Source: Fundidesulfovibrio putealis DSM 16056 (lineage in GTDB: Bacteria; Desulfobacterota; Desulfovibrionia; Desulfovibrionales; Desulfovibrionaceae). From it: a stretch of DNA of 64,000 bases. Every line of letters starts with the position of its first letter. The stretch's first letter is position 1. Positions 35,481 through 52,055 of the stretch are shown here, piece by piece. A program made the translations under genes and the position numbers. Where the stretch lies: NCBI RefSeq assembly GCF_000429325.1, contig NZ_AUBQ01000015.1, positions 1-64,000 on the forward strand, written 5' to 3'. Under the pieces are notes generated by a model. That model made no database searches, was not told the origin of the DNA, and saw only the letters and a program-made list of their open reading frames with translations.

Positions 35481-35529
35481 AGGCTTGAGTTATGTGGGGA
35501 CGGGTGCTGGGGGCTGTCCCGTTCGTGTC

Positions 35530-35581
35530 CTGGCGGGCGGGCTAGAACCGATTTGAAGACGATTCGTCGCCCGCCCGCCAG
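35530..35581. repeat. Perfect 13-bp inverted repeat with 26-nt spacer
   Basis: CTGGCGGGCGGGC (35530-35542) and GCCCGCCCGCCAG (35569-35581). No T-tract follows on either strand. It can form a very stable hairpin or cruciform; its function is unknown. Confidence 0.6.
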
Positions 35582-35823
35582 AACCCGAGCGTGACAGCAC
35601 CCTGCACCCAGTGTTCCCGCCCCGAAGGTCCCGGTCTCTAACCTCCCGGCTCGCAGCCTTCCCGCCCAAAGCCCTCAGGCTACATGTCTCAACCTTCGGC
35701 CTCTCTCACTGACCTCTCAGGGTAAATGACCAGACCTTGGGAATTCGACCAGCGACATAGGATTTCAGGAGTCAGGTTCAGAAAACAGGCATCGTAGAGG
35801 ACAGCAAAATCAAGAATAAGAAC

Positions 35824-43351: not shown

Positions 43352-43846
43352 ATGCCTACCTTTGTCGATCCCAGCAAATGTGACGGATGCAAGGGCGGCG
43401 AGAAGACCGCCTGCATGTACATTTGCCCCAACGACCTGATGATCCTCGACCCGGCCGAAATGAAGGCCTACAACCAGGAGCCCGAGGCTTGCTGGGAGTG
43501 CTACTCCTGCGTCAAGATCTGCCCTCAGGGCGCCATCGAGGCCAGGCCCTACGCCGACTTCGCTCCCATGGGCGGCACCTCCATCCCCATGCGCTCGGCC
43601 GACTCCATCATGTGGACCGTGAAGTTCCGCAACGGCAACGTCAAGCGCTTCAAGTTCCCCATCCGGACCACCCCCGAAGGCTCCATCAAGCCCTTCGAAG
43701 GCAAGCCCGAGCCCGGCAGCTTGGATGACGAGTTGCTCTTCACGGAGACCGGTTCCCTTATGGTTCCTCAGGCTACTTCCATGAAGAAGTCCGAAGTCAC
43801 CGAGGGCGACACCGTGCAGTGCTGGCTGGATGGTTTCTGCAAGTAA
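43352..43846 (+). CDS. aprB: Adenylylsulfate reductase beta subunit (two 4Fe-4S)
   Basis: Electron-transfer subunit of APS reductase, which reduces APS to sulfite and AMP in dissimilatory sulfate reduction. The 164-residue protein starts MPTFVDPSKCDGCKGG. The first cluster motif is CDGCKGGEKTACMYICP and the second is CWECYSCVKICP. The C-terminal part (~70-164) is the segment that wraps around AprA. Cytoplasmic. It is the first gene of the aprBA pair, 51 nt before aprA. Confidence 0.98.
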   Translation: MPTFVDPSKCDGCKGGEKTACMYICPNDLMILDPAEMKAYNQEPEACWECYSCVKICPQGAIEARPYADFAPMGGTSIPMRSADSIMWTVKFRNGNVKRFKFPIRTTPEGSIKPFEGKPEPGSLDDELLFTETGSLMVPQATSMKKSEVTEGDTVQCWLDGFCK

Positions 43847-43897: not shown

Positions 43898-45895
43898 ATG
43901 CCCCGTATTCCCATGAAAGAGGACGCGAAGGGCGTCGCTCTGGCTGAACCCGAAGTCATTCAGCAGCATGTCGACATCCTGATGGTCGGCGGTGGTATGG
44001 GTAACTGCGGCGTGGCCTTCGAGGCCGTCCGTTGGGCCGACAAGTACGCCCCCGACCTGAAGCTGCTTCTCGTCGACAAGGCCTCCCTCGAGCGTTCCGG
44101 CGCCGTCGCCCAGGGCCTCTCGGCCATCAACACCTACCTGGGCAAGAACAACGCCGACGACTACGTCCGCATGGTTCGCACCGACCTGATGGGCCTCGTC
44201 CGCGAAGACCTGATCTTCGACCTGGGCCGTCACGTTGACGACTCCGTCCACCTGTTCGAAGAGTGGGGCCTGCCCTGCTGGATCAAGGACGAGCACGGCC
44301 ACAACCTGGACGGCGCTCAGGCCAAGGCCGCCGGCAAGTCCCTGCGCACCGGCGCCGACCCGGTCCGCTCCGGCCGCTGGCAGATCATGATCAACGGCGA
44401 GTCCTACAAGTGCATCGTGGCCGAAGCCGCCAAGAATGCCCTGGGCCAGGATCGCTACATCGAGCGCGTGTTCATCGTGAAGATGATCATGGACGCCAAG
44501 ATCCCCAACCGCGTCGCTGGCGCCGTTGGCTTCTCCACCCGCGAGAACAAGGTCTACATCTTCTCCTGCAACGCCATGGTCGTAGCCTGCGGCGGCGCGG
44601 TGAACGTGTACAAGCCCCGCTCCACCGGTGAAGGCCTCGGCCGCGCCTGGTACCCCGTTTGGAACGCCGGTTCCACCTACACCATGTGCGCTCAGGCCGG
44701 TGCTGAGATGACCATGATGGAAAACCGCTTCGTCCCCGCCCGCTTCAAGGACGGTTACGGACCGGTCGGCGCCTGGTTCCTGCTCTTCAAGGCCAAGGCC
44801 ACCAACTCCAAGGGCGAAGACTATTGCACCACCAACCGTGCAATGCTGAAGCCCTACGAAGATCGCGGTTACGCCAAGGGCCACGTCATCCCGACCTGCC
44901 TGCGCAACCACATGATGCTGGCTGAAATGCGCGCCGGTCGCGGTCCCATCTACATGGACACCGCTGGCGCCCTGCAGGCTACCTTCGCCACCATGACTCC
45001 CGAGCAGCAGAAGCACCTGGAGTCCGAGGCTTGGGAAGACTTCCTCGACATGTGCGTCGGCCAGGCCAACCTGTGGGCCTGCATGAACATCGAGCCTGAG
45101 AAGTCCGGCTCCGAGATCATGCCCACCGAGCCTTACCTGCTCGGCTCGCACTCCGGCTGCTGCGGCATCTGGGCTTCCGGTCCCGACGAAGCTTGGGTTC
45201 CCGAAGAGTACAAGGTCCGCGCCGACAACGGCAAGGTCTACAACCGCATGACCACCGTCATGGGTCTCTGGACCTGCGCTGACGGCGTCGGCGCTTCCGG
45301 TCACAAGTTCTCCTCCGGCTCCCACGCTGAAGGCCGCATCGTCGGCAAGCAGATGGTCCGCTGGTGCGTCGATCACAAGGACTACGTCCCCACGATCGCC
45401 GAGAAGGCTGACGACCTGAAGAAAGAGATCTACCAGCCCTGGTACACCTTCGAGCAGTTCAAGGGCGTCTCCACCGACCCCGTTGTGAACCCCAACTTCA
45501 TCTCGCCCAAGAACTTCATGATGCGCCTCATCAAGTGCACCGATGAATACGGCGGAGGCGTTGGCACCCTGTACACCACCTCCAAATCCCTCCTGGACAC
45601 CGGCTTCAAGCTGCTGGCCATGATGGAAGAGGACTCCAAGAAGCTGGCCGCCCGCGACCTGCACGAACTGATGCGCTGCTGGGAGCAGTTCCACCGTCTG
45701 TGGACCGTGCGCCTGCACATGCAGCACATCGCCTTCCGTGAAGAGTCCCGTTACCCCGGCTTCTACTACCGTGGCGACTTCCCGGGCCTGGACGACTCCA
45801 AGTGGCACTGCTTCGTGAACTCGAAGTACGATCCGGTCACCAAGGAGACCAAGGTCTTCAAGCGCCCCTACGTTCAGATCATCCCGACCGAGTAA
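43898..45895 (+). CDS. aprA: Adenylylsulfate reductase alpha subunit (FAD)
   Basis: Catalytic flavoprotein of 665 residues. The FAD fold has ILMVGGGMGNCGVAFEAVRWA near residue 28, and further AprA hallmarks are DKASLERSGAVAQGLSAIN and LRNHMMLAEMRAGRGPIYMD. LGSHSGCCGIWASGPDE and ADGVGASGHKFSSGSHAEGRI are further marker segments. It forms the 1:1 AprAB heterodimer and receives electrons through QmoABC. Codon use is strongly biased to C-ending codons, fitting a highly expressed gene. Shine-Dalgarno AAAGGAG precedes the ATG. Confidence 0.99.
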   Translation: MPRIPMKEDAKGVALAEPEVIQQHVDILMVGGGMGNCGVAFEAVRWADKYAPDLKLLLVDKASLERSGAVAQGLSAINTYLGKNNADDYVRMVRTDLMGLVREDLIFDLGRHVDDSVHLFEEWGLPCWIKDEHGHNLDGAQAKAAGKSLRTGADPVRSGRWQIMINGESYKCIVAEAAKNALGQDRYIERVFIVKMIMDAKIPNRVAGAVGFSTRENKVYIFSCNAMVVACGGAVNVYKPRSTGEGLGRAWYPVWNAGSTYTMCAQAGAEMTMMENRFVPARFKDGYGPVGAWFLLFKAKATNSKGEDYCTTNRAMLKPYEDRGYAKGHVIPTCLRNHMMLAEMRAGRGPIYMDTAGALQATFATMTPEQQKHLESEAWEDFLDMCVGQANLWACMNIEPEKSGSEIMPTEPYLLGSHSGCCGIWASGPDEAWVPEEYKVRADNGKVYNRMTTVMGLWTCADGVGASGHKFSSGSHAEGRIVGKQMVRWCVDHKDYVPTIAEKADDLKKEIYQPWYTFEQFKGVSTDPVVNPNFISPKNFMMRLIKCTDEYGGGVGTLYTTSKSLLDTGFKLLAMMEEDSKKLAARDLHELMRCWEQFHRLWTVRLHMQHIAFREESRYPGFYYRGDFPGLDDSKWHCFVNSKYDPVTKETKVFKRPYVQIIPTE

Positions 45896-45908
45896 GTCGG
45901 ACCAAGCG

Positions 45909-45940
45909 CGGCCGCGGGCATCTGCCCGCGGCCGTTTTTT
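45909..45940 (+). terminator. Intrinsic terminator of aprBA
   Basis: 12-bp perfect stem CGGCCGCGGGCA / TGCCCGCGGCCG, 2-nt loop and TTTTTT, 13 nt after the aprA stop. It separates aprBA from qmo, at least partly. Confidence 0.9.
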
Positions 45941-45953
45941 CAAGCCGGAAACC

Positions 45954-46034
45954 GGCCGTTTGTCCCAAACGGTCTGATCCGGGGCGCACCGGGCTAGGCG
46001 TCCCGGATCAGGCCGTTTGACCGTGAAAGGTCAA
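45954..46034 (+). promoter_or_regulatory. qmoA leader with mutually exclusive hairpins (candidate switch)
   Basis: Segment A CCGTTTG (45956-45962) can pair with B CAAACGG (45966-45972). B also lies in a 17-nt arm (45967-45983) that pairs over its full length, with one G-T, to 46002-46018, which repeats the ggccgtttg of segment A. A third palindrome TTGACC-N6-GGTCAA (46017-46034) overlaps the last arm and ends 8-10 nt before the qmoA Shine-Dalgarno (GGGAGGT). The three stems cannot all form at once. Confidence 0.6.
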
Positions 46035-46054
46035 ATCCGAGCAGGGAGGTGTCA

Positions 46055-47302
46055 ATGTCTGGCAACGCGATACTGGTGGTCGGCGGGGGATTCAGCGGTA
46101 TCACCGCTGCCCTGGAGGCCGCCGAAATGGGCTACGAGGTTATCCTCGTGGAGAAAAATCCCTATCTTGGGGGGCGGGTGGCGCAGCTCAACCAATATTT
46201 CCCCAAGCTCTGCCCCCCCTCGTGCGGGCTGGAGATTCAGTTCCAGCGCATCCGCAGCAATCCTAACGTCAAGGTGATCACCATGGCGCAGGTCACCAAG
46301 GTTTCCGGCCAGGCCGGGAATTTCGACGTGACCCTGTCCATCAAGCCCCGCTTCGTCAACGAGAAGTGCACGGGATGCAACGCCTGCGCCGAAGCCGCAG
46401 AGACCAAGGTCCCCTGCGAGTTCGACCTGGGCATGGGACAGCGCAAGGTGGCCTTCAGGCCGAACCTGTTCGCATTCCCCATGCGCTACGTGTTCGAGAA
46501 GAACCGCTGCTCCGAAGCCGAGGCCAAGAAGATCGAGGCGTCCTGCAAGTACGGCGCGATCGATCTCGCCGACCAGGAGCGCACCCAGACCTTCAAGGTC
46601 GGCGCGGTGGTCGAGGCGACCGGCTGGAAGCCCTACGACATGTCCAAGCTCGAGAACCTGGGCGCGGGCAAGCTGAAGAACGTGATCTCCAACATGCAGA
46701 TGGAACGCCTGTGCGCCCCCAACGGGCCCACCGGCGGCCTGCTGCTCCGGCCTTCCGACAAGGCCGCTCCCAAGCGCATCGCCTTCGTGCAGTGCGCCGG
46801 TTCGCGCGACGAGAACCACCTGAACTACTGCTCGTACATCTGCTGCATGGCCAGCCTCAAGCAGGCCACCTATGTGCGCGAGCGCGTGCCCGAGGCGCTG
46901 GTCACCATCTACTACATCGACCTGCGCACCCCCGGCCGCTACCAGAAGTTCCTGGAAAAGGTCTCCGCCGACGACAAGCTTACGCTGGTCAAGGGCAAGG
47001 TCGCCGAGCTGACCGAATCCGCTTCCGGCAAGGTGCTGGCCACGGTCGAGAACGTGGATACCGGCATCAAGAACGTGGAAGAGTTCGATCTGGTGGTTCT
47101 GGCTACCGGCATGCAGCCTTCCACGGCTGGCGAGGCTGTGGCCGTCAACACGCCCAGGGATGAGGAAGGCTTTTTCATCGGCTCGCCCGACTCCGGCGTG
47201 ATCGCCACGGGCTGCGCCAAGTTGCCCTTGGACGTGATGCGCTCGGCCCAGGCGGCCACGGGCGCGGCGCTCAAGGCCATACAAACGGTTGCGGGGAGGT
47301 AA
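46055..47302 (+). CDS. qmoA: QmoA, HdrA-like flavoprotein of the quinone-interacting oxidoreductase
   Basis: A soluble FAD/Fe-S subunit (415 residues) of QmoABC, which carries electrons from menaquinol to AprBA. The HdrA-like FAD motif is ILVVGGGFSGITAALEAAEMGYEVILVEK. Cysteines fitting Fe-S binding appear in ALCPPSCGLEIQ, KCTGCNACAEA and QCAGSRDENHLNYCSYICCMASLKQA. The ATG at 46055 has GGGAGGTGTCA upstream; a GTG at 46049 is in frame but lies in the Shine-Dalgarno region. It is the first gene of qmoABCD. Confidence 0.96.
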   Translation: MSGNAILVVGGGFSGITAALEAAEMGYEVILVEKNPYLGGRVAQLNQYFPKLCPPSCGLEIQFQRIRSNPNVKVITMAQVTKVSGQAGNFDVTLSIKPRFVNEKCTGCNACAEAAETKVPCEFDLGMGQRKVAFRPNLFAFPMRYVFEKNRCSEAEAKKIEASCKYGAIDLADQERTQTFKVGAVVEATGWKPYDMSKLENLGAGKLKNVISNMQMERLCAPNGPTGGLLLRPSDKAAPKRIAFVQCAGSRDENHLNYCSYICCMASLKQATYVRERVPEALVTIYYIDLRTPGRYQKFLEKVSADDKLTLVKGKVAELTESASGKVLATVENVDTGIKNVEEFDLVVLATGMQPSTAGEAVAVNTPRDEEGFFIGSPDSGVIATGCAKLPLDVMRSAQAATGAALKAIQTVAGR

Positions 47303-51746: not shown

Positions 51747-52055
51747 CTACCAGCGACCGCCGCCGCCACCGTAGCCGCCACGGCCGCCGCCGCCACCGCC
51801 GCCGGAGCGGGGCTTGTCCTGGGCCTCGTTGACCTTCAGGGTACGACCGCCGAGCTCCTTGCCGTCCATGCCGGCGATGGCGGCCTTGGCGCCTTCGTCG
51901 TCCATTTCCACGAAGCCGAAGCCACGCAGGCGGCCGGTCTCGCGGTCGGTGATCAGAGCGACGCTGTGGACTTCGCCGAAGGCGGAGAACACGTTGCGGA
52001 TTTCATCTTCGGAGGTGCTGAAGGAAAGGTTTCCAACATAGAGTTTCTTAGACAT
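51747..52055 (-). CDS. RRM-type RNA-binding protein with Gly-rich tail
   Basis: A 102-residue protein with a single RNA recognition motif: RNP2 LYVGNLSF near residue 5 and RNP1 RGFGFVEM near 44. A glycine/arginine-rich tail (RSGGGGGGGRGGYGGGGGRW) follows. This is the cyanobacterial/proteobacterial Rbp-type architecture, often cold inducible and used for RNA chaperoning. It is monocistronic, with a ~240-nt AT-richer leader upstream and its own terminator downstream. Confidence 0.93.
   Translation of the reverse strand: MSKKLYVGNLSFSTSEDEIRNVFSAFGEVHSVALITDRETGRLRGFGFVEMDDEGAKAAIAGMDGKELGGRTLKVNEAQDKPRSGGGGGGGRGGYGGGGGRW

Follow-up and report, generated by a model that had tools for sequence, protein, structure and literature searches.

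A long RNA hairpin between aprA and qmoA conserved in much of the Desulfovibrionales

Within sulfate respiration, AprBA and QmoABC take part in one and the same step, the reduction of APS, and the apr message is generally expected to be more abundant than the qmo message. What, then, is the role of the palindromes that lie between aprA and qmoA in Fundidesulfovibrio putealis DSM 16056? The window analysed here, a stretch of 64,000 nucleotides from this organism, carries on its + strand three open reading frames, which we take from protein family and gene order to be aprB (adenylylsulfate reductase beta subunit, 43352-43846), aprA (alpha subunit, 43898-45895) and qmoA (46055-47302, with an ATG start at 46055; the ORF list begins at GTG 46049). 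Along this strand, an intrinsic terminator with a 12-bp GC-rich stem and a T tract (45908-45940) comes after aprB and aprA; it is the sole terminator-like site found by the terminator scan in 45850-46150. Next come the palindromes, AGGGAGG (46043-46049), read from the sequence as the qmoA ribosome-binding site, and qmoA itself. The QmoA protein of the window is 91% identical in Fundidesulfovibrio agrisoli, which NCBI places in the Desulfovibrionaceae, Desulfovibrionales, Thermodesulfobacteriota, and 99% identical in a Desulfovibrionaceae MAG. Behind the qmo genes, a small glycine-rich RRM-type RNA-binding protein is encoded on the - strand (51747-52055). The original prediction had read the interval as a leader with competing hairpins, which would act as a translation or transcription switch for qmoA.

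The three palindromes are present in the sequence as claimed, and since they overlap, they cannot all form together. The segment GGCCGTTTG occurs twice, at 45954 and 46011, and CAAACGG is found at 45966. The small upstream palindrome, GGCCGTTTG-TCC-CAAACGGTC (hairpin 1, 45954-45974, -10.4 kcal/mol), overlaps arm A of the central hairpin, and the third, TTTGACC-GTGAAA-GGTCAAA with its 6-nt spacer (hairpin 3, 46016-46035, -8.8 kcal/mol), overlaps the end of arm B. The 17-nt arm described previously is part of hairpin 2 (45966-46019, -42.9 kcal/mol), in which an uninterrupted run of 22 pairs, including two wobbles (U-G and G-U), joins the 5' arm A (45966-45987) to the 3' arm B (45998-46019), which reads (T/C)AGGCC(A/G)TTT in many relatives, around a loop of 10 nt (45988-45997) whose length varies among relatives. 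When the 64 kb were scanned for hairpins with loops of up to 40 nt, hairpin 2 ranked second by score and was the longest unbroken stem listed. The top-scoring hairpin of that scan, at 35503-35608, has a stem of 40 positions with mismatches and a loop of 26 and lies in a GC-rich stretch. The 171-nt region that includes the aprA terminator folds with -95.2 kcal/mol (z = -5.95, 0 of 200 shuffles equally stable), and this, together with the covariation in relatives described below, bears out the claim that a structured RNA element lies past the terminator of aprA and ahead of the qmoA ribosome site. Hairpins 1 and 3, in the form seen in the window, are limited to the window's genus among the compared leaders, and a third-like hairpin was found in L104. 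Two further candidates at the site were discarded. A minimal ORF, ATG-GTC-TGA, was noticed in arm A, but the window and several genera have ACG as its first codon. An operator for HcpR, a regulator of the CRP/FNR type, at the third palindrome is a misfit in spacing, as the spacer is 6 nt there versus 2 nt in ATTTGACC-N2-GGTCAAAT, which the excerpts of PMC545781 give as HcpR consensus next to TTGTGA-N6-TCACAA.

For a regulated switch, arm B would pair with either arm A or the downstream segment A' (GGTCAAATCC, 46029-46038), which repeats arm A in degenerate form, while the upstream palindrome would compete for arm A, and a signal would select among these forms to control qmoA translation or transcription. 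The overlap of the palindromes would suit such a mechanism, as would the similarity of A' to A in several genera and the observation that, over 42 leaders, arm B on average pairs with its own downstream stretch better than with dinucleotide shuffles (mean z -1.27). However, in 27 leaders the pairing of B with its own A' was no better than with the downstream segment of another genus (p = 0.61), whereas the main A:B stem passes the cross-genus comparison with z = -10, so that only one of the two mutually exclusive pairings, which should both coevolve in an attenuator or riboswitch, does so. In the window, arm B and its own downstream segment reach -11.1 kcal/mol, and hairpin 2 exceeds each alternative by more than 30 kcal/mol. 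In addition, A' is transcribed last, later than any termination decision at B, and the upstream palindrome has the restricted distribution mentioned above. All three of the competing hairpins are real but unequal, hairpins 1 and 3 being far weaker than hairpin 2, and the switch proposed for them did not hold up; we regard it as improbable.

To look at the evolution of hairpin 2, 33 representatives were chosen from 65 distinct cores after near-duplicates and nine cores with loops outside 9-17 had been dropped. In this alignment, 92.3% of 818 cells are paired and 16 of the 25 pairs have changed on both sides. The covariation score is 0.449, compared to 0.252 ± 0.012 after shuffling and 0.06-0.14 with slid partners, and RNAalifold predicted 24 of the 25 pairs unaided. 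Covariation in relatives had been put forward beforehand as a check of the original prediction, and the compensatory changes indeed exceed a tree-based null with independent columns on the protein tree (0.454 versus 0.212 ± 0.023, with 0 of 400 simulations as high); by parsimony, 26 branch events are compensatory on both sides, 70 keep the pair through a single change and 46 break it. G-U pairs occupy 135 cells and A-C pairs 11, whereas the make-up of the columns alone predicts 173 and 47, and the scarcity of A-C indicates that the RNA is read on the + strand. Judged by these comparisons, the hairpin is under selection as a structure of the sense-strand RNA. Much of the order shares the sequence of the lower stem (GGUCU facing AGGCC), whose U-G pair is kept in 29 of the 33 representatives, with C-G in the other four.

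A further alternative is an element acting at the DNA level, with operators or a qmoA promoter within the palindrome. Single leaders do contain promoter-like sequences, namely TTGACC-17-TATCGT in the loop of L068 (shuffle p = 0.01) and TGGACA-17-TTTAAT overlapping arm A in L184 and L175 (p = 0.05 and 0.07), but searches with the sigma-70 consensus found no promoter in the window and no enrichment over 39 representatives (mean p 0.56). Moreover, mispairs are G-U rather than A-C, the spacing of the arms is variable, and the covariance model R1 scores the sense strand at 62.6 bits and the antisense strand of the same place at 36.9 bits, a difference to be read in the light of its training on the sense strand. 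We thus consider a DNA-level role highly improbable. In L175, L179 and L184, which belong to one family of the order, TGGACA-N17-TTTAAT is a good match to sigma-70 promoters with the -10 box in arm A.

How widely is the hairpin distributed? Using the window aprA as tblastn query, we located the aprA-qmoA gaps of relatives, whose counts are throughout counts of non-independent events. The family set comprised 103 intervals with both genes (L132, without an aprA match, was omitted), and by a strict pairing score the hairpin is present in 80 of them. Nine loci fall under the strict cut, of which one (L055) has the same gap as L007 and the other eight (L075, L077, L079-L084) belong to one genus and have broken stems. 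In L120 both arms are kept with a large insert between them, as read by eye in an interval of 700 nt, and L118 has a long hairpin of different sequence. In G310, from the same genus as L120, there is a 56-bit match upstream of qmoA. The remaining 12 of the 103 intervals (L119, L122, L124-L131, L133, L134) contain none of these hairpin forms; aprA still precedes qmoA in them, with gaps of 208-478 nt. With R1 at an E value of 0.001, 80 of the 100 loci L032-L131 gave a match, each just upstream of qmoA, and the 20 negative loci are the eight with broken stems, L118, L120 and ten of the hairpin-less 12.

In five other families of the order, the hairpin was found in 28 of 30 intervals, in some with much altered sequence, and the other two, L190 and L195, have long hairpins of diverged sequence; a long hairpin thus persists despite altered sequence in L174, L184, L118, L190 and L195. 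On a tree of AprA and QmoA, 106 of 122 distinct leaders of the order are positive, the labels being set by hand from pairing data and including seven leaders under the strict score. The 12 negatives form one clade of 13 with L118 (support 0.975), which is most simply explained if an ancestral element was lost once, and the hairpin looks ancestral to the Desulfovibrionales. Expression studies could use the hairpin-less clade as a natural comparison. The length of the helix and its spacing were determined for 113 distinct leaders chosen by pairing score, with weaker stems omitted (67 + 14 from the family, 5 named and 27 from other families). In this selected set, the helix has at least 20 bp in all 113 leaders and at least 22 bp in 111, with a median stem of 26 bp and a median paired fraction of 0.96, and the hairpin ends 35-65 nt before the qmoA start in 97 of them. 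The helix of the element makes about 2 to 2.5 turns, and its place is downstream of the aprA terminator and upstream of the ribosome site of qmoA.

In its own genome, the window's element is the only site found by R1 at E values of up to 10. At an E value of 0.05, which includes weak matches, 90 of 149 family genomes gave a match, as did 151 of 297 genomes of the order at 0.01, with genomes lacking apr-qmo still counted in both totals. For 25 genomes of the order outside the family that gave a match, the best one lies at most about 170 nt upstream of qmoA in 23, and the two exceptions, G165 and G182, have altered-sequence hairpins upstream of qmoA (L175 and L174, respectively). A dispersed family of hairpins was considered and rejected: of six weaker off-site matches inspected, four resemble bidirectional terminators with A and T runs, one (L260) lies inside a long ORF and one (L261) is a short hairpin, and, judged from the ORFs, no apr or qmo gene was found at any of the six. 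The hairpin stays in the aprA-qmoA gap. The original prediction knew of no described element here, which agrees with our searches: in Rfam release 15, all 13 matches listed for window positions 45850-46150 are below gathering level, 20 related loci gave no match, and no element in the aprA-qmoA gap is described among the literature matches listed, which comprised titles and abstract starts from sources with few subscription journals. This is a well-defined RNA family that has no counterpart at gathering level in the Rfam copy searched and would be missed by pipelines built on Rfam.

Outside the order, whole-stretch folding gave z < -2 in 6 of 20 intervals, the cut having removed part of some hairpins, and a stem scan took its place. 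Among named records, a second long hairpin of unrelated sequence lies past the terminator in 12 of 16 intervals, each with p = 0.016, the minimum with 60 shuffles; it is absent in L010, L026, L027 and L030, and L012, L016, L018 and L022 lie outside these 16. For the phylum set, up to 16 kb around qmoA were taken from 39 genomes of 37 other families, in 32 of which (31 families) aprA is within 900 nt of qmoA, genes being called by a simple ORF rule. A stem of at least 20 bp, beginning 55 nt or more beyond the stop of aprA, was found in 15 of these 32 intervals versus 1 of 71 co-directional control gaps (Fisher p = 1.8e-8), and in 18 of 32 versus 8 of 71 when the 55-nt rule was dropped. The stems counted may include dispersed repeats of those genomes, such as hairpins of the AATTGCAAATTG kind. 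Where qmoA does not lie behind aprA, 0 of 9 loci reach the stem score, L223 having a weaker stem (12.5); a stem is present in a tenth locus, L233, where a contig border leaves the upstream gene outside the sequence. The comparison of 15 of 32 with 0 of 9 suggests that the hairpin goes with the adjacency of aprA and qmoA, albeit on small numbers and simple ORF calls.

As hairpin 2 lies directly behind the aprA terminator, it might serve as a second, tandem intrinsic terminator or as a pause site with partial readthrough into qmoABC. It resembles tandem terminators in this position and in the T run of at least 4 that lies within 8 nt of the stem in 78 of the 113 leaders. Unlike in tandem terminators, the T run is shorter than 4 in 35 of the 113 leaders, two of which (L067 and L176) are mis-anchored rows, and the stems are intact and the helices still long there, so that the conserved role is unlikely to be that of a second terminator. 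The window is among the 35, with GTTTGACC and its three T directly after the stem in place of a T-rich tail; its outer A-U pair has been replaced by C-G with the pairing kept. Moreover, conservation of sequence and a length above 20 bp are not requirements of a terminator stem. Hairpin 2 is absent from the output of the terminator scan, which says little, as the scan covers loops of 3-8 only and the loop here is 10. We regard termination as quite unlikely.

The constancy of the lower-stem sequence in both arms, together with the U-G pair kept in most representatives, speaks most strongly for a specific binding partner, that is for a cis-regulatory RNA bound by a protein or ligand, in which a dedicated factor would recognise the wobble-containing lower stem and control qmoABC. 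Against this stand the single R1 site in the window's own genome, the unrelated stems that occupy the gap in other families of the phylum, and a near-continuous helix with no obvious ligand pocket, and we hold such a role to be unlikely. The RRM-type protein encoded beside the window's qmo genes, the one protein class searched for, was rejected as a partner, since a motif search found no counterpart within 8 kb of qmoA in 20 regions from other genomes, one of them of the same genus.

The reading that we prefer is a cis-acting intercistronic hairpin with a processing or protective role, which may decouple qmoABC from the aprBA mRNA; we rate this as a serious possibility, just short of probable. 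According to this model, some transcripts would read through the aprA terminator and would then be cleaved, the site lying either in the unpaired, U-rich linker that precedes the hairpin, for an endonuclease of the RNase E type, as in papBA, or within the long stem, for one of the RNase III type. The hairpin would subsequently shield the qmoABC message at its 5' end, block exonucleases or do both, and the outcome would be aprBA and qmoABC messages with separate stability and stoichiometry. RNase E/G and RNase III are both encoded in the genome. This reading fits the length of the hairpin, its place, its free sequence in other families and its tie to the adjacency of aprA and qmoA. As processing hairpins require no fixed sequence, the conservation of the lower stem suggests an extra constraint. 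What counts against a processing role is that 17 of the 32 phylum intervals have no stem of at least 20 bp under the 55-nt rule, that whole-stretch folding outside the order was mostly unremarkable, with the limit given above, that the hairpin-less clade of 12 leaders keeps aprA beside qmoA, and that the hairpin lies 124-189 nt from qmoA in 15 of the 113 leaders. In addition, protective structures are generally found inside coding regions in the E. coli operon survey excerpted from PMC5927463.

Known systems share parts of this architecture. RNase III cuts near-perfect stems of about 20 bp or more, and REP hairpins lie between malE and malF. The stem described here, with 22 pairs in the window and at least 20 bp in every scored leader, is similar to RNase III processing stems in being near-perfect and in spanning two or more helical turns, with cleavage being putative here. 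It differs in that its lower part keeps its sequence, and RNase III is not known to demand a stem sequence. Differential decay of the malEFG type, named in the excerpts of PMC5927463, is comparable in that cistrons of one operon are needed in unequal amounts and would here, too, putatively be separated at the RNA level; unlike in malEFG, the hairpin is no dispersed repeat, R1 finding its sole site in its own genome. The layout also resembles that of papBA, for which intercistronic processing and a protective 5' stem-loop have been reported (Bricker and Belasco, 1999, as cited in the excerpts of PMC5927463): a stable hairpin stands between two co-directional cistrons, upstream and downstream, with an unpaired stretch upstream of it where an endonuclease could cut. 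In contrast to papBA, the stem is long, its sequence is partly conserved in the order, an intrinsic terminator precedes it, and cleavage is putative.

On the basis of these sequence comparisons, the hairpin is most likely an mRNA spacer that lets aprBA and qmoABC be made in different amounts. From the original prediction we keep the suggestion that the element may tune the ratio of Qmo to AprBA, through processing or stability and not through a switch. No description of how the amounts of AprBA and QmoABC are matched was found in the literature searched, including excerpts of PMC3409199 and PMC11124144. An element that much of an order has retained, and whose place is taken in other families by unrelated long hairpins, is a concrete and easily edited target for work on the apr and qmo messages. 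We speculate further, as a conjecture that is rather unlikely as a whole, that an aprBA/qmoABC insulator made of two hairpins, a terminator and a long double-stranded RNA stem with free sequence and selected place, is general in the sulfate reducers of the phylum, that a dedicated factor has locked the lower-stem sequence in the Desulfovibrionales, and that the insulator sets the Apr:Qmo ratio. If this were true, the ratio would amount to how APS reduction is coupled to the supply of electrons from the membrane. In L216, the aprA-qmoA gap contains at positions 338-430 a stem of 45 bp, as long as the scan allows, that is nearly perfect; it stops 8 nt short of the last letter of the qmoA start codon and is possibly an inserted palindrome.
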